Position numbers and translations under genes: made by a program | The notes under the pieces: generated by a model | Databases searched by the model: none | What the model was told of the DNA's origin: nothing | The model's input: the letters and a program-made list of their open reading frames with translations, nothing else | Shown: positions 52,495 through 64,000 of the stretch, piece by piece | Layout: the number at the start of each line of letters is the position of its first letter | Position numbering within the stretch: the first letter of the stretch is position 1 | NCBI GenBank assembly: GCA_905221615.1 | Contig: CAJNDT010001013.1 | Location: 434,001-498,000 of the forward strand | Direction: 5' to 3' | Length of the DNA: 64,000 nt | DNA from: Symbiodinium sp. CCMP2592 | Taxonomy: Eukaryota > Sar > Dinophyceae > Suessiales > Symbiodiniaceae

Positions 52495-52540
52495 GAGGAA
52501 GGGGGGGAAAGGGGGCGGAAGGGGGAGGGGGGGAGGGGTG
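52495..52540 (+). repeat. Poly-G/purine tract, G-quadruplex-prone
   Basis: Repeated runs of 4-7 G separated by A or GA, immediately upstream of the retroelement's left region. Confidence 0.75.
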
Positions 52541-52742
52541 AAACCATAAACCTCTAAAGGGGTAGCTCTAACAGGTACCTACAGCAATGGCTGCATGCTC
52601 ATACATATACATTCCGCTGCCCATTGGCTCACAGTGGTTTTACCATATTGAGACAAGACAAGCTCTCCTTGCGTAGCAAGACAAAACAACTACTGTCCGT
52701 GTGCAGGGCGCTGCCCTTTGATCCTTAGGGAATAACTGGTCA

Positions 52743-52778
52743 TACACCTCCTAACAAGGAGTATTCCTTGTGGGTGTA
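52743..52778 (+). promoter_or_regulatory. Strong hairpin in the retroelement leader
   Basis: TACACC..GGTGTA encloses ACAAGGA-GTAT-TCCTTGT, a nested perfect stem. It lies 15 bases before the candidate primer-binding site. It may belong to the 3' part of the left LTR or the packaging leader; LTR borders could not be set because the right LTR is outside the window. Confidence 0.45.
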
Positions 52779-52792
52779 TCGGCACAGTTTTC

Positions 52793-52808
52793 TGGTAGCG
52801 GAGCCCGG
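52793..52808 (+). promoter_or_regulatory. Candidate primer-binding site (tRNA-iMet type)
   Basis: TGGTAGCGGAGCCCGG resembles the complement of the 3' end of eukaryotic initiator tRNA-Met, the usual primer for copia elements (plant copia sites read TGGTATCAGAGC). It lies 81-96 bases before the gag ATG. The upstream sequence GGCACAGTTTTC could contain the LTR end (CA). Confidence 0.5.
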
Positions 52809-52888
52809 AAAGGGCCGCCCGCCTCACAAAGTCCGCTACAGCGGTCGGCCTCGCCGAACGCTTGACCAAGCGGATAAGAGGCAGCACA

Positions 52889-54700
52889 ATGTCGAGCTCG
52901 CATAGCGAAGCCGACGGCAGTTCCCAATCCTCCGGGGGATATGAGAACGAAGAGACCTCCCAAGGTCCAGCCACTTATGTCGCACAGTCATATGCAACAT
53001 CTGACCGCATGCTTGCATCATTAGGCATAACGCCCAAGATCGCGCCTGCCTATGATGGCACCACCTCGTGGTTTGAGTATGAACAGTTGATTGACGACTG
53101 GTGCGACATAACAACGCTGGATGACACCAAAAGAGGTCCGTCTCTCAAGACGAGGCTCTCCGGATTGGCCGCAGTACAAAAAGAATCACTTAACCGAGAA
53201 AGGCTTGCAGCCCCAGATGGAGTAGATTACTTCAAGAAGAAGATGCGTCCATTTTTCGTGAAAGGAGAACAGTACGTTTTCCTGTGGCGTTTCCTCGGCC
53301 TATTCAAGGCATGGAAGGGCAACCAAGACTTTGTGACTTGGATTGCTAAGTTTGAGATCGTGCTACAGCGCGTGAAAAACTCATGGATGGATCTCTTACC
53401 AGAGATAGCTCTGGAAGATGCCCATCCAGATTTCATGCAAGCTGTGCAGGCAGACCGAACCTTCCTGGGCCTACAGGAAGCAGCCGAGAGAGACACATAC
53501 GCCGCACGCTATTTCGAAACATGGAACAAGGAACGCCTTGACAATCATCGAAGAGCGTTTCCTCTGAATGATAATCTCCTAGCTCTTCTCTTCCTAGTGC
53601 AGTCCGACCTAAATGAGATGCAACGTGAGAGGTTGGTAACAGCATTGACCAACCAAGGTCACCGAATTGAGACCTACACGTACCCTGTGGTACGGCAGAC
53701 CATGTTCGATCAGTTCTCAACGACCAGAACTGGTCTGCAGGATCCCAACATTCGGCACTCTTCTCACAAGAAGGACCGCCATGGAAGGAGAGACCAACGC
53801 CGCAAACGCGGAGGTCGAAACTTCCTCATCCTCGATCAGGGTGAATACGATGGAGTCGATGGATTCTGGCTCCAAGACGAAGACACCCTTGAGGAAGGCT
53901 TTCTTGCCGCCGAGGATGAAGAAGCTGTCTTCTGGACAGTTGACGACCATGAAGCCTTCGTTGCAAGGAGATTCAAAAAGGGAAGAAGACCAAGAATGCG
54001 TCCCGGATCACCGGGAAGAGCAAAGGGTGGCAAGCGAAAAGGACGTGGCCGTTTTAGGTCATACCGCGGAAAAGGGAGAGCCAACCAGGCAGAACATGAT
54101 CCAACTGATTCCAGCTATTTCGGTAAAGGTAAAGGAAAGGAAAAAGGAAAAGGTGGAAAAGGCAAAGGAAAAGGAAAGGACAAAGGAGATAAAGGAAGCT
54201 CCTTCAAGGGCGCAAAGGCAAAAGGCAAAGGTAAGGATACAGCTAAGTCTGCCTCCTTACAAGGAGACCAAACTGGATCTCCACAGGCCTATGAAAGTTC
54301 CACCGCACCGAGCTGGGATTCATGGTATGAGGACAGTTATTATACTGACTCCAGTTGGAATTATGCCGCTTATGACGATCAAACGTCTTATACATACTAT
54401 GCATCACAAGCCTCACGAAGAAAAACACGGAGAAAGAAGAGAAGAAATCAAGCAGGATCATCAGGTAGAGGCACAGATCCGAGCGCGCACCAAGAACCCG
54501 TGTTCAACTCATCAGTGAGTTACGTGCCCCAGGTCTCTGAACCATCCGAGGGGCAAGGTGTTGAACTGCAACAGCGGTGTTTCCGTTGCAGCACACCGTC
54601 CTATCTGCTCTCACAGAGCGGATCAATCTTGATAAGAGCCCTACCTTTGTCATACTTGACTCTGGTTGTACTAGGGCTATGGGTTCCCGCTATGCGGTGA
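52889..54700 (+). CDS. gag: Gag-like protein of a copia-type retroelement
   Basis: It has 603 codons from the ATG in GCACAATGTCGAGC; an in-frame TTG lies further upstream at 52862. The first 30 residues are Ser/Glu-rich. Residues about 60-270 form the capsid-like helical region (KIAPAYDGTTSWFEYEQLID, then FLWRFLGLFKAWKGNQDFVT), as in UBN2/retrotrans-gag folds. This is followed by a basic part with long KGKGKGKGKDKGDKG tracts and a Tyr/Ser-rich segment. It ends near a half zinc knuckle, CFRC, without the His and last Cys of CCHC. It overlaps pol by about 136 bases; pol is in the -1 frame and no canonical slippery heptamer was found at the overlap, so the junction may be a mutation rather than programmed. 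It would form the virus-like particle around the element RNA. Confidence 0.82.
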   Translation: MSSSHSEADGSSQSSGGYENEETSQGPATYVAQSYATSDRMLASLGITPKIAPAYDGTTSWFEYEQLIDDWCDITTLDDTKRGPSLKTRLSGLAAVQKESLNRERLAAPDGVDYFKKKMRPFFVKGEQYVFLWRFLGLFKAWKGNQDFVTWIAKFEIVLQRVKNSWMDLLPEIALEDAHPDFMQAVQADRTFLGLQEAAERDTYAARYFETWNKERLDNHRRAFPLNDNLLALLFLVQSDLNEMQRERLVTALTNQGHRIETYTYPVVRQTMFDQFSTTRTGLQDPNIRHSSHKKDRHGRRDQRRKRGGRNFLILDQGEYDGVDGFWLQDEDTLEEGFLAAEDEEAVFWTVDDHEAFVARRFKKGRRPRMRPGSPGRAKGGKRKGRGRFRSYRGKGRANQAEHDPTDSSYFGKGKGKEKGKGGKGKGKGKDKGDKGSSFKGAKAKGKGKDTAKSASLQGDQTGSPQAYESSTAPSWDSWYEDSYYTDSSWNYAAYDDQTSYTYYASQASRRKTRRKKRRNQAGSSGRGTDPSAHQEPVFNSSVSYVPQVSEPSEGQGVELQQRCFRCSTPSYLLSQSGSILIRALPLSYLTLVVLGLWVPAMR

Positions 54701-57700
54701 ACAGGCTTATCAAGGCCGTGAAGCAACATGCCCCAGGCATGATTGATTTCACTTTTTCACCTTCGAACACGAAGTTCTCTTTCGCAGATAGTGAAACAGC
54801 TCTTATCAAGGAGCGTGTAACTCTATGGTTCAACACAACTCCAAGAAGAGATACAACCATAGAAGTTTTGGATCAGGGGAGAGTCCCCATTTTGTTTTCC
54901 ATCGAACAGATGAGGAATTTAAGAATGACCCTCGAGTGTAGTCCCACAGCTGACCTAGCAACGTGTGAAGCTTTCGGTTTGTATAAAACCCCTCTTCCGA
55001 TTAGTACCAATAACCATTTGGTATTGGACCTTCTAGGCTTCACTTCCACCAGGAAGTATCTCCCTAAGTCAGGTACGTCGTTCAGTGCGACGGAGACTGC
55101 TCTAGGAGCCAAGAAGCCTTATACTAGGATACCGGAAGGTCGCTGTCCAGCCTGTGCCGGACAGAAAAGGGCTCACACGTACCTCAAGGGTTGCGACAAA
55201 GCACCTGAGGGAGCAGCTGATCCACCACCGAAGAGGATTTCAGGTAAAAAGAAGCCTCTTCCATCTGATCCGGCAGAATCATCTGCCAAGAAACTTGATC
55301 CACCAGAACCATCTGGTGATGCTCCTGAGCCTTCCGGACCATCGGAACCATCATCAGGCTCTAGGGACAAACCTGCAGAATCCTCTGCACCACATGAACC
55401 TCCAGAAGAAGAAAGACTTGAGGTCCCACCTGCGAAGATAAAGACTCCAAAGGGTCTTAAAAACCTTCTGAAGAAATCCCGCAAATATGCGGTTAAACCT
55501 CCTGTTGAAGAGAAGTCTAAGGTCCCAGGAGCTGATGACGGGACGGAGGTAAGACCACTTGAGTCAAGAGAATACCCGGCTCCTGGTACAGACTCACCTA
55601 CAGGTGAAGAGATTGTCGCGGAACCATCGCCATCTCTTCCCATTGCTCTTCGCAGGATTCATGAGAAGCTTAAGGACCCTGTAGAACTCTATAAGCTTCA
55701 CCTTAAGCACCGTCATATGAGTACGGATCAGTTCAAGCGACGCACAAAAGCCTTACAGATCCCAAAGGAGATATACGAGCTATATGACCAACTGGTCAAA
55801 AAGTGTTCAGCCTGCCAGGAACATGTGAGAGCTCCTTCAAGAGCGAAGATTTCTGGTTTAAGATCAGAGACTTTCGGTGATCTCACCTTCGTAGATCACG
55901 GTGAGCTTCCAATTCCCGGCAAGGATAGTCGCTTAGTATTTCTTATTCTCTATGATGGAGCAACAAACTTGTTGACTGCCGAAGTAGTCCAGGATAAAGA
56001 AGAACATACTACAATGTCGATTATGAATGACTACTTTGAGAAATTTCAGATCAACCCAAAGGTTGTAGTTGGAGATCAAGCATTCATGACTCCAAAAATG
56101 GAGGCTTATTACAATCGGCAGAATATCAAGCCTGTGGCAACAGGACCTGGAACACCATGGCCCAACAGGGCCGAAGCTGCTGTAAGATTGCTGAAGCATC
56201 AGATTAAGCTCATACTTCAGATCCTGAAGGATGGTGACCCGCAGTATAACGGAATCACCATGAAGTATGGCAACCTCGTTCGCCAAGCATGTTTGGCAAG
56301 AAACTCTTCGATTACCTACGGAGGAGTTACTCCTTTAGAAATGGCCTTTGGAAGGCGTCCTCGAGATGTTATAACACCAGAGAACGCTGATCCCAATCAG
56401 TTGACAGGTAATCCAACTGATACGGAAGTCACTGCGAGAGCCATTAAGGAGCTTGCCAACAGGGCTTACCAAGAGGCACGCCAATCTGATGATCTGCGTA
56501 GAGATCTTGCAGCCAGACTGTCAATGACCCAAGGACCTTTCTCTTTGGGAGATAAGGTTTTCTACTGGTCAGAAGATAAGTCTAAGATTGGATCCACTGG
56601 GTCCAAACATGGATCTTGGCTAAAAGGAAAGGTGATCTCCGAACTCGGAGGATCCATGGTAGGTGTGGATCTTGGAACACGCATCGTCCGCGTCAATATC
56701 TCAAAACTGAGGAAAAATTATGACATAACATCTGATGTGGAGATTCCTCTCGCGCCTGATGAGGAAACTCTGACGTCAGAAGGTTCTGACCACGCAAGTT
56801 GCATGGTCACCTTCGATGCTTCCCTGCAGTCGACAGACCTAACGGTTCCACATCAAGAGTGTCACTGGCAGGTCACCAGCACTGGGAAGATTGACTTCCT
56901 AGAACTCTACGGCGGATCTCCCCGCATGAGTCACAAGGCTGCCCTGTCAGGTCTGCGAGTAGGTCAGCCAGTCGATTTGCGTAGCGGTCTAGATCTTGAG
57001 CAACCGCAAGGTCGCTCCAATCTTCTTAGGATCATCAAGGAACAAGAACCTACTATTATTGTTATGTCACCGGACCATTCTCAGTGGTCTAGCTGGTACT
57101 CACAGTGGAAGAAAGGCTCTGCCAAGAGACTTTCTGTTTTAAAATTCTGTGAATCGGTCGCAGACCACCAAATGAAGCTCGGACGTTACTTTGTTCTTGA
57201 GAACCCATACTACAGCAGGCTCTGGTCTTCACCAGAAGCAAAACGCCTGTTTTCTAATCATAAGATCAGCTATGAGGTCTGTAACCTACAGGCCTATGGC
57301 ATGAAAGATCCAAAAGGATACTATGAATCGAAATCCTCGATTTTTATGCACAACCTGCCACCGCAAGTTTTAATTCCTCTCCAGAGGCATTCTGCCAAAA
57401 CGAAATCTCCAACATCTCCACCAGGAGACGAAAAGGGTATTCAAGGCTACGGTCTTAAAACGAAACTCGCACAAGTGTATCCTTATGAATTCTGTGAGAC
57501 CTTTGCCTCGTGTTTGGCAAGATTCCTGAAGCGAGATGCGTATGCATCTCATCTGTCTTTGGTCACAGACATACTAGAATACTCTGGAGATGAATGCCTC
57601 CAGGGACTTTCGGAACTTCTTGATCAGGAGTATTCACTTTTGACAACAAATCCTCTCAAGGATTCAAAACTCCTGCAAGATCCGAAAATCAGATCACTTG

Positions 57701-59400
57701 TTGCTAGAGTAAATTCCTTATCGAGTAAAACTGAATTACCATTGCATCATTCCAAACCATCACCGTCCCTTGATGCCTTGGTGTCAGACATTACTCGCCT
57801 TAGATCAAGACTCTTACCAGGGTCTGGTTTCGAACAGTGTACTCTATACAGAGGTACATTTGGAACAGTCAAAGCACTCACCAGTGTAACTGATGGCGTT
57901 CTTGTCTTTTGGAACAAGAAGAAGCCCAATTCGACTATGACGTGTTGCTTGCCGCACCAGGTTTCCTGGAACAAGGTACACCCATCAACCTTCTCGGGGG
58001 TGCTATTCCAGATGACAGGCGGCAAGACTTCACCGTCCGTGCGAACACCGCCGGATGTAATCATGTCGGACGAAGAGGTTTCGCCGTCAGACCCGTCAGA
58101 ACCAATGAGCACTAATCGCTCACGGATCACATCTGACGATGTCTCTATGCCGGAACCAGATCAGCCGATGCCTCCCGGCACACCGCCGTCGCGTCCTCCT
58201 CCTCCCATACCTCCACCGCGACTACCGGCAGTTTCCTCCGATGAGCCCGTGGCTCCTGCTCGGGCTAAGCCTCGCGTGCATCCGCCTCCTCGCGTTCCGT
58301 CTCCTCGGCGTCTGGGGGGTGATGTGTCGCCAAGGTCTTCATCGGAAAGGAAAGTTTCGCCGCACAAACAGAAATCACCTTCACAGGTGCCGACACCAAA
58401 ACCTAAACCGAAGGCACATCCACAGGGACCCATTCTTCCGTTACAACAAGATGAAGAAGACACTGAAGAAGAACTGGTCCCAGACGACCCCGGACAACCG
58501 TCCGCTCCTCCTCACACTTCTGGTTCACCAGAACCGGAGAGCGATGCCGAGTCAGAAAACACAAGGTATTACTCTGATGAGGAAGGTGACTTGGTCGTAG
58601 ATGAGAAGGACTGGGTCCTTCTCACAGAAGAACAGAAACTGTGCAGTAACACAGGTTCTTTCTCCATGCCTCGGTACATGCATGGCGGACCCGTAGACAT
58701 CAGAGAGGTAACATCAAGAGTGAGGTCAGACCGAACACGGTATAAACCCACCAAAAGGTTCCGATCTGACATCCGTGAAGAGTATGATCTTCTCACGGAA
58801 GAGGACAAGGCCTTATCCCTAAGTTCCCCCAGGAACTCAGCGAATCTGACCCAGAAGGCACAACGGAAGGAGGCAACCGCCAAGGAAAAGCGTGAGATGA
58901 AGAAACAGTTTGATGAAGCGAAAGCAGCAGAATATCAGAGCTGGCTAGACAATGATGTCTTTGAGCTCGTCGATACACGGAAACTCGGAAACATCCGAAA
59001 TTATGTCACTGGTCGATGGGTCCTGACTCTAAAAAGAGACAAGGACGGAAACTTCCTTAAGTGCAAGGCCCGATGGGTCCTGAGAGGTTTCCAGGATCGA
59101 CAGAAGGACATTCAGCAAACTGATAGTCCTGCTGCGAGTCGCCCAGGTTTCCGCTTAGCGATTCAACTAGCAGCTAACAAGCTGTGGAATCTGACACACA
59201 TCGACCTAAAGACTGCTTTTCTGCAGGGTGAAGCCTATGATGAGTCGAGAGACATAATCTGTCAGATTCCTCCTGAAGCAGGTTATCCTCCCTACATTGC
59301 AGCGAGGATGAAGAAACCCGCTTATGGACTTAACGATGCACCTCGAAGATGGTGGAACATCGTTGATAAGGCACTCCTGTCTTATGGCCTGGTGCCAACC
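54577..59400 (+). CDS. pol: Pol of a copia-type retroelement: protease, integrase, methyltransferase-like, RT (interrupted)
   Basis: The frame opens at 54565 with no ATG; the first possible start is GTG. Protease: VILDSGCTRAM (residues 25-35). Integrase: HLKHRH..CSACQEH zinc site (about 374-414), then TFVDHG, VVGDQAFM and NRAEAAV as the DDE residues (about 440, 499, 531). Next, an unusual domain at about 770-960 with FLELYGGSPRMS, IIVMSPDHSQWSSW and RYFVLENP, resembling motifs I, IV and VI of DNA cytosine methyltransferases, but with no Cys after the Pro in the IV-like motif. Then a Pro-rich linker and RT (YVTGRWVLTLKRDKDG to NDAPRRWW, about 1476-1595). Integrase before RT defines Ty1/copia order. 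Near 59398 the RT continues in the -1 frame, and the original frame runs unrelated to 59511. One lost base explains this, so this copy is probably defective unless it is a sequencing error. Confidence 0.9.
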
Positions 59401-60755
59401 GTGCGGATCGCTGTACATATGTTCTGTATGGTAAGAAGTCTGCAACAGCAGATGCTGAGCTCAAGAAGTCTCAGCCAAAAACCATGGAATCAGCGATTGA
59501 CTACCTCCTAGATCCCATAGCAGGCAACAATGCCAAGGGTAGACAGGTACATGGAGTAGTCTGTTTGCATGTAGATGACCTGTGCATGGCCGGTGATGAC
59601 ACCTTTCGTAAGGCCGTGATTGAATCGATCAAAAAGGAGTTTGCAGTAGGTTCTGAGGACACGAATGATATCATGTTTGTAGGACAGAGATTAGTCTGGA
59701 AGGATGCTACAGCATCAGTGCCAGCACATATCTCAGTAAATCAGAACCTAGCTGTTGAAGCTCTAGAAGAAATTGTTTTTGATAAGAAGCTCAACAATGA
59801 GCAACAATGCACACCACAGCAGCACACTGCCTATAGAAGTGTTTTAGGACAGATCAACTGGCTACAAAGCCGGACTCAAGCTCACATCTGTTATCGCTTC
59901 AGTCGGTGTGCGAGCAAGGCTGCCAAGCCTACTATCGGTGCTATTCGAGAATTGAACAAGCTTGTTAGGATTTTGAAGTCTACCGAAGTAGAATTGCGTT
60001 TTTGGCCGCTGAAAGGAAATCTCAGAATCCTCGGTTACCCTGATGCTTCCTACAGGAACAATGTTGACAAATCATCTCAGAGAGCACATGTTATTTTCCT
60101 TGCTGAAGATCGAAATCCAAAGCTAAAGGGAATGAAACAATCAGCAGCAGCTGCTTCTTCCAATAAGAACGATTTCTCTGAATCCTCTATTAAGGAAACA
60201 TCCTCGAGAGGTAGCCTGGTGGAGTATGAGTCTCACAAGATTACGACAACCACAATGTCCACAACAGTGGCAGAGCTTAACGCACTGATGCGTTGCTTTG
60301 GTACCTGCATGTTCCTCAAGGGACTTTGGGCAGATCTCTCATCAGAGACCGTACCTATACATATCAGAACAGATGCGAACAATCTTGTGACAACAGCAGG
60401 CACGACACACCTTCCAGAGCAGCAGGAAACTCACCATCTTATACAGATGCTTCGTAAGGAATCCAACTCTGGATCTTTAGATGACCTAGCTCATGTAAGC
60501 TCGAAGTACTGCCTAGCTGATGCATTAACAAAGGATTCGGCGCAACCTGATGAGCTTATCAAGGCTCTGGAAACAGGAAATTTACCAGAAACAGACATTC
60601 ATCCACCCTTCCGTGAACTTCTTCAACATAAAGCTTTCACTGTTCGGTGGATCATAGACAACCTTAAGAATGCCGCTACAGCGGTAGCATTCCTTGGAAT
60701 TGATGTCTCAACAGAGATTTACCGATTATTTTACTGCCAAGGAACATGGTGGTAG
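59400..60755 (+). CDS. pol: Pol continuation: RT C-terminal half and RNase H
   Basis: The frame is open from at least 59400, with a first ATG at 59484, and ends TGGTGGTAG. It starts with the RT text that should follow PRRWW (DRCTYVLYGKK), reaches the catalytic VCLHVDDLCMAGDD and continues through the thumb (QCTPQQHTAYRSVLGQINWL). It ends with RNase H: LRILGYPDASYRNN, then STTVAELNALM and IRTDANNLV. The domain is complete, so only the frame break separates it from the upstream part. A 224-base gap without repeats follows, and then the next ORF on the same strand. Confidence 0.9.
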   Translation, partial: RADRCTYVLYGKKSATADAELKKSQPKTMESAIDYLLDPIAGNNAKGRQVHGVVCLHVDDLCMAGDDTFRKAVIESIKKEFAVGSEDTNDIMFVGQRLVWKDATASVPAHISVNQNLAVEALEEIVFDKKLNNEQQCTPQQHTAYRSVLGQINWLQSRTQAHICYRFSRCASKAAKPTIGAIRELNKLVRILKSTEVELRFWPLKGNLRILGYPDASYRNNVDKSSQRAHVIFLAEDRNPKLKGMKQSAAAASSNKNDFSESSIKETSSRGSLVEYESHKITTTTMSTTVAELNALMRCFGTCMFLKGLWADLSSETVPIHIRTDANNLVTTAGTTHLPEQQETHHLIQMLRKESNSGSLDDLAHVSSKYCLADALTKDSAQPDELIKALETGNLPETDIHPPFRELLQHKAFTVRWIIDNLKNAATAVAFLGIDVSTEIYRLFYCQGTWW

Positions 60756-60979
60756 TCTTGTTTGCTGGTAGCACAACCATGTGCTGGATTTTCTATTTAG
60801 ACTGTTTTTCGTCTAAAAGAAAATTTGTGTCTGCAAGCTGCGTTTTCATCAAGATCGGACATGTTCATGAGAACTATATGTTCTTTATCATCCGCAGCCG
60901 CTTTCAGCCTCGAGCCTCACAGCAATCAGCCTTTTGAGCTAACCAAGCATTCCTGATCCTGTTTGATCATCGTGCCGTA

Positions 60980-63900
60980 ATGAGCACACGATCAAACTTC
61001 CGTAGCCGTGATGGACACGCCCTACCCAGGGCAGTACAGGCGTACCATGAGCGACATCCACACATGGATAGCTCTTACCCCGAGTCTCGTCGGGAAGCAT
61101 CACGTCGACACACCGAACACGGTGGACATCGATTTCACAAACGTGAGAAAAATAACGAGCCTCCATACATTTACATGGGTCACCAACAGGGGTTCAATCC
61201 GCGTCCAAGAGATCTTGCTGACCTGATCTTACGATGTGGCCATGCGAGTCGAGCAAGGCTCACTCCAATCTCCAGACATGGAGTCAGACTCTATGAAGGA
61301 GTCCTCCAAGGACCATGGGACAACAGTCCCCTTTTATACTGGGATAACAACGTGGGTAATCACGCTCGTGATCCACGCCAGTTCTGTACGATGCTTGCAC
61401 ATCACCTTCAGACAGGCCTCCCACCGGAGGTAGAACAATGTGTGAGCCTTGATGGATCCGGAGAATATGACTATTCCTCCTCAGTGCCAAAACTGGCAGA
61501 TGTAACAGGTCTCTCAACAGAGATGTGCTTCCACATTCTTTCCAAGACCAACAGAGTCGGAAGGTGGTTGGCACACTCAACAAGACACCTTCAGAACCAG
61601 CGCCCAGATCTCTTTGCTGGCCAACACAATTATCTTCTGGACATGTCCAAGTTGGCCGATGCAGAGCTCGCACAGTATACACCACAAGAGATCGCGCTAG
61701 GTGTCCTCCTCAACACTAAGTCCAGGTTCGTGGTCACTATGGTTTATAACCAAGATGGCAAGGCCGAAACCACAGATGCCGCCGTTACCATCCCACCGGA
61801 TGCAAATGTGCTGACCATGACCAACGTTTTCCTCTCGGCAGTGGGAGGACACGGTTCACGACGAACTCTACCAAGAGTTGAAGAACCAGATCCTGAAGAA
61901 GAGAGGCCAAGGTCACACATGACCATCTCAGGCTTCATGGCAACGGGCAGCAATCCAGTGCAGTCCCGTGCACAGCGTCTCTCCACTAACGCGCCGAGAC
62001 CCGTAGGCATGGAGGATTTTGTTCGACAGAACAACCCTTGTTACATCATGCATGCCACGGACCTACAGCCATTATCCTCAATCCTGAGGCACGGTCTGGT
62101 ACCATCAAACCTCCTATCGCAGGTGGTTACATCACCAGGTCTTCAAGCTCTCGTGAATGAAAACAGTCGTTCCAACAGGGACACTGTTCAGTGTTCAACG
62201 CTAGACCTGGCGAATCCTAATCCGACCATGTTGCGTGCCAACAAGGCACTGCTTCTAGTATTCGACGCAAATAACGTAGTGAACGAAGTCACAAACATGT
62301 GGCAGTCGCCAGCAGGGATGTTTGCTACACCAGAGGTAGTGCATGCCCGTACTCTTAGCGCCGTATTCGCACCCTCTGAACCACTCTGGGTATCATCGCA
62401 ATACGATGAGCTCAACAGCATCGGACCATGGTGGGCAGACCACTGCTCCGAACAGATGCCGTCAGCGACTTACGAGTCGAAGAAATGGTGCGCAAATTAC
62501 GGCCAAGAGATCGAATCGACACTTCGGAAGGTGTCAAAGCGAAATCTGCCTCCAGAGCCTCCCAAGGCTAGATCTTCTCACAAGAAGTCTTTCCTTCTGC
62601 CAAATACAGAGGCTGACACAGCTACAAACCTGGAGCAAACCGCTTCTGCAGGTGAGGTACCTCCGAAAACGGAGACTACTACAAAGGACATCCATCCGAG
62701 ATCCAAGCTCGCCCGGCAGGCCGAGGCAGACAAGGATCCGGACAGTCTTATGGGACAGCTCTGGAACTCCGACGGCACCAGAAGCGCCACTGAAGGTCTT
62801 AAGATAACGACAGGTCACAAACCTCCAGAACCTGTTCAGGATACTTCTGCCAACGTAGTTCCTCCCAAGGAAGAATCTTCTGGAACAGAGACGGAACCTG
62901 AGGAACCAGATCCTAACCAGGATTGTGACGAAGAATCAGACGTTGAGTCGGCATCAAGCGAAAAGAGCGAAAAGAGCTCAAAATCCTCGTCATCCTCAGA
63001 ACTCCGAGTTGATGTTAATCCGTCTCACAAGACGAACTCTGCACCTGCAGCGTCAGAGGAGAAGAAAGAATCTCCCACGGAAGAGATCACAGAGAAACTT
63101 GAGAAGGTCAAACTTGACCAACCAAAGCCTGAAACAGAATATGTTCAGAGTTCAGACGAAGAGCCAAGGAAACCAAAATCTCCTAAAAAGGAGGAGAAGG
63201 AAAAATTCCTAGTTCTCTTCGATCCTGAAACAGAAACTTATTATCGAGTCAACAGAAGCAAGCTCAACCTCGAATACGAGGAGCCTGCTGATGAGGAAGA
63301 CCTCGTAAGAGAACATGAGCGCATCAGCGCTCGGATTCGAGAAAATACCAAGCACCGAATCTCGAAGTCACCGTCTAACCCGGATATGCAACAGGAAATG
63401 CAAGAGAGAATCTGGGTTAGTCGATGGAATCGAAAAATCCGAAGTCCACTCATGATCAAAGATTCTGAGGCTCCTGACGAAGAGGAGTGGGACAGACCCA
63501 GAGAGTCGGCATCTTCCTCCTCTGCACCTCCTACCAAGGAGAGATTTGTAGGAGTACGCAGGACAGCCATGAGCCTTAACCAAAGGATACGGAGGTTGCC
63601 TCGACCAGACAATCCTCTCTGCGATCTCTGCAAACAGCCTACAGGCTATTTTTGCTATTCCTGTGGTACGATTGTATGTGCAGACTGTCGACTTACCCCA
63701 CAGGGTAAACAACGGATGTGCGAGTGCGTCTTGCCAATCGATTGCCTCGAGAACTCTAAAGTGTCAGCAGGAATGACCTCAGAAGAGCGTCAGTTTTTAT
63801 ACGAGGCCATCCTCACACATGAGGACGTAGAGTTGGCAGTCCAGAAAATCAACATGTATTGCGAACACGCAAGAAGTCTGTTCGAAAAGGACCATCCAGG

Positions 63901-64000
63901 CGTTGATCCATGCAGCCTTGATGATATTAGGAACAATCCTCCGAATACGTATGACAGCTCCACAGAGGCTCCAACCCTGGAGGAATATAAGAGCATTAAC
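60980..64000 (+). CDS. ORF3 of the retroelement: Tpt1/KptA-like and Cys-rich finger protein, open at window end
   Basis: It has 1007 codons from ATG (CCGTAATGAGC) with an in-frame TGA shortly upstream, and is still open at the last base. Residues 1-110 are Arg/His-rich. About 134-218 (TMLAHHLQTGL..CVSLDGSGEYDY..LSTEMCFHILSKTNRVGRW..AGQHNY) follow the helix/wing rhythm of the N-terminal lobe of RNA 2'-phosphotransferase Tpt1/KptA. After about 130 other residues, 355-490 (YIMHATDLQPLSSILRHGLV, then ALLLVFDANNV and SPAGMFATPEVVHARTL) resemble the ADP-ribosyltransferase-fold lobe. The family's Arg-His-Arg-Arg set is not clearly kept (HH in place of RH; no Arg before GQH), so activity is doubtful. 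An acidic Glu/Lys/Ser linker follows. A finger CDLC..CYSC..CADC..CEC (881-916) precedes a helical tail. Codon use and linkers res. Confidence 0.7.
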   Translation, partial: MSTRSNFRSRDGHALPRAVQAYHERHPHMDSSYPESRREASRRHTEHGGHRFHKREKNNEPPYIYMGHQQGFNPRPRDLADLILRCGHASRARLTPISRHGVRLYEGVLQGPWDNSPLLYWDNNVGNHARDPRQFCTMLAHHLQTGLPPEVEQCVSLDGSGEYDYSSSVPKLADVTGLSTEMCFHILSKTNRVGRWLAHSTRHLQNQRPDLFAGQHNYLLDMSKLADAELAQYTPQEIALGVLLNTKSRFVVTMVYNQDGKAETTDAAVTIPPDANVLTMTNVFLSAVGGHGSRRTLPRVEEPDPEEERPRSHMTISGFMATGSNPVQSRAQRLSTNAPRPVGMEDFVRQNNPCYIMHATDLQPLSSILRHGLVPSNLLSQVVTSPGLQALVNENSRSNRDTVQCSTLDLANPNPTMLRANKALLLVFDANNVVNEVTNMWQSPAGMFATPEVVHARTLSAVFAPSEPLWVSSQYDELNSIGPWWADHCSEQMPSATYESKKWCANYGQEIESTLRKVSKRNLPPEPPKARSSHKKSFLLPNTEADTATNLEQTASAGEVPPKTETTTKDIHPRSKLARQAEADKDPDSLMGQLWNSDGTRSATEGLKITTGHKPPEPVQDTSANVVPPKEESSGTETEPEEPDPNQDCDEESDVESASSEKSEKSSKSSSSSELRVDVNPSHKTNSAPAASEEKKESPTEEITEKLEKVKLDQPKPETEYVQSSDEEPRKPKSPKKEEKEKFLVLFDPETETYYRVNRSKLNLEYEEPADEEDLVREHERISARIRENTKHRISKSPSNPDMQQEMQERIWVSRWNRKIRSPLMIKDSEAPDEEEWDRPRESASSSSAPPTKERFVGVRRTAMSLNQRIRRLPRPDNPLCDLCKQPTGYFCYSCGTIVCADCRLTPQGKQRMCECVLPIDCLENSKVSAGMTSEERQFLYEAILTHEDVELAVQKINMYCEHARSLFEKDHPGVDPCSLDDIRNNPPNTYDSSTEAPTLEEYKSIN

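Follow-up and report, generated by a model that had tools for sequence, protein, structure and literature searches.

A 64,000-nucleotide stretch of the genome of the dinoflagellate Symbiodinium sp. CCMP2592 (contig CAJNDT010001013.1, positions 434,001 to 498,000; referred to here as the window) contains a long terminal repeat (LTR) retrotransposon of the Ty1/copia type followed, on the same strand, by a long additional open reading frame (ORF), which we call ORF-X. This locus raises the question of whether ORF-X belongs to the element, and what it codes for. The element is a copia LTR retrotransposon that is present in many copies and was recently active, and ORF-X is its third ORF, placed after pol and ahead of the 3' LTR. 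Profile comparisons show that the front part of ORF-X (residues ~193 to 453) is homologous to Tpt1/KptA, the RNA 2'-phosphotransferase that depends on nicotinamide adenine dinucleotide (NAD+).

ORF-X starts 224 bases past the pol stop (60755) and is open for 1007 codons within the window, in agreement with an earlier sequence-only reading that placed an ORF of at least 1007 codons 224 bases after the RNase H stop and quoted motifs that are indeed present. Two sibling copies (L025 on contig 779 and L027 on contig 2423) have the full frame, which by coordinates spans 2304 codons from start to stop codon; in both, a matching 3' LTR lies ~300 bp beyond the stop, with 249 bp aligned to the window's 5' LTR (100% and 99.6% identity, respectively). 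The suggestion that the ORF lies between copia LTRs is thus confirmed in these two siblings. A third sibling, L026, has an N-run after the first ~0.6 kb, with no LTR match there. In the window copy, ORF-X continues beyond 64000 to an N-run in the assembly, followed by partial LTR and gag sequence; the 3' LTR of this copy lies behind the N-run and is not seen whole, and the two-LTR structure is taken from the siblings. A repeat search of the 44- to 64-kb region gives no right LTR between 60755 and 60980, and the 3' end of pol is directly upstream of ORF-X in all eight loci fetched (L016 to L023, of which L016 is the window and L021 is in pieces), none of which has the ORF away from a copia element. 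The reading of ORF-X as a neighbouring host gene is rejected on two grounds, the LTR position in the two siblings and the presence of pol upstream in all eight loci.

The ORF is also common and well preserved. A DNA search of the 1.1-Gb genome, in which 40 of 815 candidates were scored, shows at least 39 further places that match the 3001-base ORF-X query over its full length at 97 to 98% identity, with the window itself at 100%. The frame is open over all 1499 to 1500 codons examined in seven of the eight loci, the exception being L018, which stops at codon 1186 and contains an N-run. Among six siblings, pairwise differences amount to only 2 to 20 changes over ~4.5 kb, pointing to recent activity of the element; the window copy is 60 to 65 changes away from them. 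Among database proteins, P0001 (1477 amino acids [aa]) aligns with ORF-X residues 38 to 1007 at ~50 to 54% identity, and two short relatives, P0002 and P0003, align with its front part; together with the 39 near-identical genomic places, these matches argue that ORF-X is not a chance reading frame. The longest contig recorded for P0003 (ORF-X) is 251466 bases, as is that for P0004 (pol), and we take the two to be a single contig. Pieces of pol and ORF-X are joined in gene models P0016, P0051, P0052, and P0061. P0016, from Symbiodinium sp. CCMP2592, has 99% identity over 22% of the pol query and 91% identity over ORF-X residues 102 to 738; this public model ("BSL3") fuses copia pol, ORF-X, and a metallophosphatase, and the fusion is probably wrong. 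Scans of viral contigs and genome contigs for ORF-X relatives were unproductive.

The Tpt1/KptA relationship is seen most clearly by profile-profile comparison. Aligned with 21 Tpt1 sequences (15 bacterial, archaeal, and phage sequences and 6 of dinoflagellate type, 5 of which are from the same genome and one of which is P0076), ORF-X residues 180 to 500 give an hhalign score of 51.4 over 163 columns, with a single-pair E value of 2.9e-7. The real score is 14 standard deviations above the mean of 400 column shuffles (mean, 14.2; standard deviation, 2.6), in which the highest score is 23.0; the alignment in reverse scores 14.3. Nearly the whole signal comes from the NAD+ lobe (residues 346 to 453), which alone scores 51.1; this lobe scores 40 to 41 against the 15 bacterial, archaeal, and phage sequences (single-pair E values of 3.4e-5 to 5.8e-6), and scores of 49 to 51 against sets of 21 or 23 sequences likewise indicate homology of the NAD+ lobe. 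A search of 340 sequences (hmmsearch) with the 21-sequence profile recovers frames or pieces of the window, L016, L017, L019, L020, L023, P0001, and P0016 at E values from 1e-8 to 1e-4, with the best unrelated sequence at 0.93, P0002 at 0.23, and P0003 not listed. In Pfam searches with cut pieces, PF01885, the Tpt1/KptA family, is the top family for all four (L019, E of 0.00097 and 19.7 bits; L023, E of 0.001; P0001, E of 0.057; window, E of 0.075 and 13.5 bits), and in the uncut L017 frame (1499 aa) it is ranked behind a B-box (E of 0.052). The sequence-only proposal of a Tpt1/KptA-like region is therefore backed by profile comparison, though at levels under the Pfam cut-off. That reading had also named DarT and PARP as relatives to be compared; in Pfam searches of the window ORF, its cut piece, L017, L019, and L023, where the HMMER filters drop weak matches, neither family is reported at an E value of 10 or less.

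It is very improbable that the likeness to Tpt1 is accidental and that ORF-X codes for an env-like or structural protein. A hydrophobic C-terminal stretch seen by eye in the siblings would suit such a protein, as would the lack of any Pfam match over cut-off other than the B-box, yet chance resemblance sits poorly with a score 14 standard deviations above the shuffle mean and with the first rank of PF01885 in all four pieces.

Several results nonetheless weigh against a Tpt1-like enzyme in ORF-X. The curated PF01885 cut-off of 26 bits is reached by no ORF-X sequence, the best being 19.7, and PF01885 gives no match to the whole 1007-aa window ORF or to whole P0001, for which Pfam shows weak matches only. 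It is likewise absent from the Pfam results for P0002, which has an unrelated domain of unknown function, and for P0003, which has nothing. A PDB sequence search with the window ORF and P0001 returns no Tpt1 chain. Against the six dinoflagellate-type Tpt1 sequences alone, the ORF-X score is only 26.8, and against P0076 and P0080 alone it is 23.4, over 19 columns around the HGT motif. The RNA lobe is weak on its own, its score being reached by 21 of 150 shuffles with the 21-sequence set and by 5 of 300 with a 23-sequence set to which eukaryotic Tpt1 was added, and a rival register for this lobe exists (residues 131 to 198). The HGT motif of Tpt1 is HAT in ORF-X, with the His and Thr kept in all five family members. 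Finally, the ratio of nonsynonymous to synonymous substitution rates among recent ORF-X copies is 0.74 when pooled over 21 non-independent pairs and 0.77 in the Tpt1 region, and no selection is shown among these copies (L018, with its N-run, is excluded).

The register of the RNA lobe, which in Tpt1 is an N-terminal winged-helix unit, determines whether the active-site residues are present. There are two candidates, residues 131 to 198, where the sequence-only reading placed the lobe (KTNRVGRW..AGQHNY), versus residues 193 to 293, and of the six profile comparisons that contain both stretches and align one, five pick the latter; the sixth (residues 95 to 345 versus the 15 prokaryotic sequences) picks the former. 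The Pfam PF01885 alignment begins at residue 233, in agreement with the 193-293 register. Single-segment scans are split, with the long helix core best in the 131-198 register, DKKRF best in the 193-293 register, and SK..LRH and IRA.QGHS scoring best outside both. Tpt1 is described as having an essential Arg-His-Arg-Arg tetrad, a conserved Lys, and the His and Thr of HGT (PMC6333775). The favoured register reads GRW.....TRHL (R202, H203), NTKSRF (K247, R249), SAVGGHGS, IMHATD (H358, T360), and NRDTVQ (R400), such that R202, H203, R249, and R400 would correspond to the tetrad, K247 to the conserved Lys, and H358 and T360 to the HGT His and Thr, with R400 the candidate for the phosphate-binding Arg (Cth R121). 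The first six of these residues in sequence order (R202, H203, K247, R249, H358, and T360) are identical in five of five family members, and R400 is kept in four, with a gap in P0003. In the 131-198 register, the first tetrad Arg is replaced by His or Tyr. The earlier view that the catalytic residues are altered thus depends on the register, and the one that the profiles favour keeps them.

A rival reading is that of a catalytically dead domain, serving a structural ORF3 protein as an NAD+-, ADP-ribose-, or RNA-binding part or as a decoy. The strong divergence from Tpt1, the change of HGT to HAT, the long inserts, and an altered QGHS motif are what would be expected of lost catalysis; against this, none of the five rows with a letter at the positions of the tetrad, of the HGT His and Thr, or of the extra Lys departs from the others there, despite only ~54% identity between the window ORF and P0001. 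We regard loss of catalysis as unlikely, and because the favoured register keeps the essential tetrad, the sequence gives no call for the binding or decoy role that had been suggested earlier.

Whether the Tpt1-like domain of ORF-X is a working enzyme, removing 2'-phosphates from the element's own nucleic acids as part of the third ORF of a copia element, we judge to be an evenly balanced matter. A 2'-phosphate left at a ligated RNA joint would hinder reverse transcription. In the proposed mechanism, a nuclease whose products end in cyclic phosphates would cleave the element RNA or its tRNA primer, and an RNA ligase of the plant/fungal type would reseal it, leaving a 2'-phosphate at the joint that would impede copying of the element RNA; the Tpt1-like domain would then use NAD+ to remove the phosphate and restore a copyable template, and the B-box of ORF-X may provide protein contacts or placement in the particle. 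The reaction proposed is that of Tpt1, which transfers an internal RNA 2'-phosphate to NAD+ (PMC6333775). Tpt1 enzymes of prokaryotes, eukaryotes, and archaea also ADP-ribosylate 5'-phosphorylated RNA and single-stranded DNA in vitro (PMC8883491), and this activity raises the alternative that the domain ADP-ribosylates the 5'-phosphate ends of element RNA or first-strand complementary DNA (cDNA), forming a cap against nucleases or ligases. Such capping would demand no special ligase of the host and would suit particles that carry cDNA, but there is no direct evidence for it, and the favoured register keeps the tetrad with which Tpt1 contacts both the 2'-PO4 and the 3'-PO4 at a splice junction (PMC6333775), which fits work on 2'-phosphates at least equally well. 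We consider capping possible but doubtful, and with modest confidence favour 2'-phosphate removal.

The Tpt1-like ORF of this copia element does not stand alone. A PF01885 search of the same genome, in which 150 of 1550 candidates were scored, gives at least 152 matches, with a best E value of 8.6e-50 and all rows shown over the cut-off; the open frames are 224 to 1535 aa long, and ~85 rows, counted by eye among the matches listed, have a 665-aa frame. ORFs were examined in twelve 3.5-kb loci (L029 to L040), which are too short to include a reverse transcriptase (RT), and in five 10-kb stretches (L041 to L045), as well as in the 7 kb upstream of L041 (L046), of which the first ~4.3 kb are N. 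L042 has Tpt1 (E of 1.2e-44) and Exo_endo_phos (1.3e-10) in one ORF with RVT_1 (1.2e-9) next to it, and L043 has Tpt1 (1.7e-39), Exo_endo_phos (1.2e-5), and RVT_1 (1.3e-18). L041 has a 665-aa ORF with Tpt1 (1.4e-39) and a subthreshold PARP match (2.6e-4), preceded by a ubiquitin hydrolase ORF (5.3e-10) and, further upstream in L046, by an RT of the long interspersed nuclear element (LINE) type (tblastn, 4e-48); L044 and L045 have the same 665-aa Tpt1 ORF. All three Tpt1 loci read far enough (L042, L043, and L041/L046) thus have a LINE-like context.

The L041-type family bears on the idea that the ORF-X domain works against silencing or defence by acting on RNA, DNA, or proteins of the host, since its combination of Tpt1, a PARP-like stretch (E of 2.6e-4, under cut-off), and ubiquitin hydrolase (E of 5.3e-10) resembles a host-manipulating set. 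Tpt1 is an enzyme of nucleic acid ends and nothing ties ORF-X to a host target, and we find this role quite improbable.

The domain is also present in another copia protein. P0076 (1661 aa, 336 cluster members) is a copia polyprotein with RVT_2 (1e-17) and a C-terminal PTS_2-RNA match (E of 1.9e-5, 25.2 bits) that is slightly under the local cut-off, and its record lists PF01885. Two results count against Tpt1 in P0076: a PDB search with its tail alone gives no Tpt1 and nothing beyond a Dicer-like chain (E of 0.018), and its hhalign score against the 15 prokaryotic Tpt1 sequences is just 25.2 (E of 0.004). For the L042 Tpt1, the nearest solved structure is eukaryotic tRNA 2'-phosphotransferase 1 (E of 1.9e-27). 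In a tree of 23 Tpt1 sequences, those of bacteria, archaea, and phages group in a single clade (100/99) that excludes the eukaryotic and dinoflagellate sequences; only 4 of the 20 inner branches are well supported, which leaves the number of captures unsettled, and the partial row L030 is excluded. A scan of viral contigs for KptA was unproductive. Tpt1 looks like a retroelement module in this genome, and there is about an even chance that it is one of dinoflagellates more broadly, acquired separately by copia and by several LINE-type families, present in more than 100 copies in one genome, and supplying NAD+-dependent 2'-phosphate removal or 5'-phosphate ADP-ribosylation as a replication step.

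Features of the element are collected in Table 1. Its Ty1/copia assignment follows from an RVT_2 match (PF07727) in pol at ~58951 to 59400 (E of 3.9e-15), ahead of which there is a weak integrase-like stretch (rve at pol residues 442 to 531, E of 0.026, with the RT at residue 1463); an IS481 transposase model gives an E value of 5.1e-4 on residues 426 to 534, under its own cut-off. The gag-like ORF and pol part 2 have no Pfam match. The pol of the window copy is broken, being split into two frames, whereas its relative P0004, at 86% identity, is open across 2071 aa. Just inside the 5' LTR, TGGTAGCGGAGCCCGG is what we take to be a counterpart of the copia primer-binding site. The purine-rich string that precedes the sibling 3' LTRs has a near-copy at 60812, in the spacer between pol and ORF-X, which is the sole match with six or fewer mismatches on both strands of the 64-kb window; from this we would guess that ORF-X was appended behind an older 3' end of the element. 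Between integrase and RT, at ~56980 to 57700, pol has by eye the look of a worn cytosine methyltransferase (FLELYGG.., VLENP..), and Pfam gives no match on 57004 to 57600. G-rich simple sequence is present at all three LTR outer flanks seen (window 52527 to 52538, L025, and L027), and a preference for insertion into such sequence is possible.

Table 1. Positions of the copia element, ORF-X, and their parts in the window
Feature	Position	Strand	Details and basis
5' LTR, TGAAACC...GGCACA, with TG..CA ends	52539..52786	+	248 bp; window sequence and sibling LTR match
Primer-binding-site-like TGGTAGCGGAGCCCGG, just inside the LTR	52793..52808	+	Putative; sequence by eye
gag-like ORF	52799..54700	+	633 aa stop to stop; named from position only
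pol part 1, integrase-like stretch and RVT_2 reverse transcriptase	54565..59511	+	Pfam, ORF list
pol part 2, rest of RT and RNase H-like end, in another frame	59370..60755	+	Position and P0004 match
pol/ORF-X spacer	60756..60979	+	224 bases; translation matches the P0003 N terminus
Near-copy of the purine-rich string preceding sibling 3' LTRs	60812..60835	+	5 of 24 mismatches
ORF-X, third ORF of the copia element	60980..>64000	+	Own ATG; runs past the window end
Tpt1/KptA-homologous region, ORF-X residues 193-453	61556..62338	+	R202 H203, K247 R249, H358 T360, R400
NAD+ lobe, strongly supported part, ORF-X residues 346-453	62015..62338	+	Profile comparisons
B-box-type zinc finger, ORF-X residues 877-904	63608..63691	+	Pfam, E of 2.9e-5

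Elsewhere in ORF-X, a Pfam search with the whole 1007-aa frame gives zinc-finger families alone, all at one spot and with the B-box best; this is also found in L017 (E of 5.3e-5, slightly under cut-off). The C-terminal part contains a hydrophobic stretch, FSIAWNVFLLLMGLHWMWKQ, in L025 and L027, where it is followed by a His/Cys-rich motif, and a similar stretch is present in P0016, P0051, and P0052; this part of the protein is possibly membrane linked. An EEP nuclease in the C-terminal part (HFNS..GDLN by eye) was considered and rejected, with no Pfam EEP match, no PDB profile match, and an hhalign score of 21.7 versus a maximum of 25.7 in 120 shuffles, using three EEP sequences only. With this candidate gone, derivation of ORF-X from a LINE carrying Tpt1 and EEP is a guess.

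Extra enzymatic ORFs in LTR elements are of a known kind, and one coding for Tpt1 was not found in print: among the matches listed in the open-access literature, outside which most subscription journals lie, no publication links Tpt1/KptA with retrotransposons. Relative to Tpt1/KptA/TRPT1 proteins (PF01885) themselves, ORF-X has a homologous NAD+ lobe by profile comparison and keeps the tetrad and the HGT His and Thr in the favoured register, but it has large inserts and HAT for HGT, lies inside a 2304-codon retroelement protein, and is under the curated cut-off. A few positive-strand RNA viruses have KptA domains in their polyproteins (PMC9503650) and likewise embed KptA in a mobile RNA genome, although these are viruses rather than retroelements, and the available text of that report makes no mention of retrotransposons or retroelements. 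LTR elements of bdelloid rotifers with an enzymatic ORF3, such as a DEDDy exonuclease (PMC5408684), show the same type of ORF across retroelement classes, with a different enzyme and in an animal host. In Symbiodinium, LINE and DIRS elements carry a DNA methyltransferase (DNMT) (PMC5890265) and are thus an example from the same host genus of a nucleic acid-modifying enzyme in different classes of element; there the enzyme is a methyltransferase, the Copia superfamily is stated to be without the DNMT domain, and Tpt1, KptA, and phosphotransferase are unmentioned in the text available. Orchid Ty3/gypsy elements with an N6-methyladenosine RNA demethylase (PMC9289625) also combine an LTR element with an acquired RNA-modifying enzyme, with both the enzyme and the superfamily differing from those here.

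If the reading of ORF-X and its LINE-type counterparts is true, these would be the first retroelements with an RNA-repair or ADP-ribosyltransferase step. A working domain would tie retrotransposition to RNA repair or to ADP-ribosylation of nucleic acids, would explain why this genome has so many copies of Tpt1, and would offer a testable case that reverse transcription is impeded by 2'-phosphate or 5'-phosphate ends.

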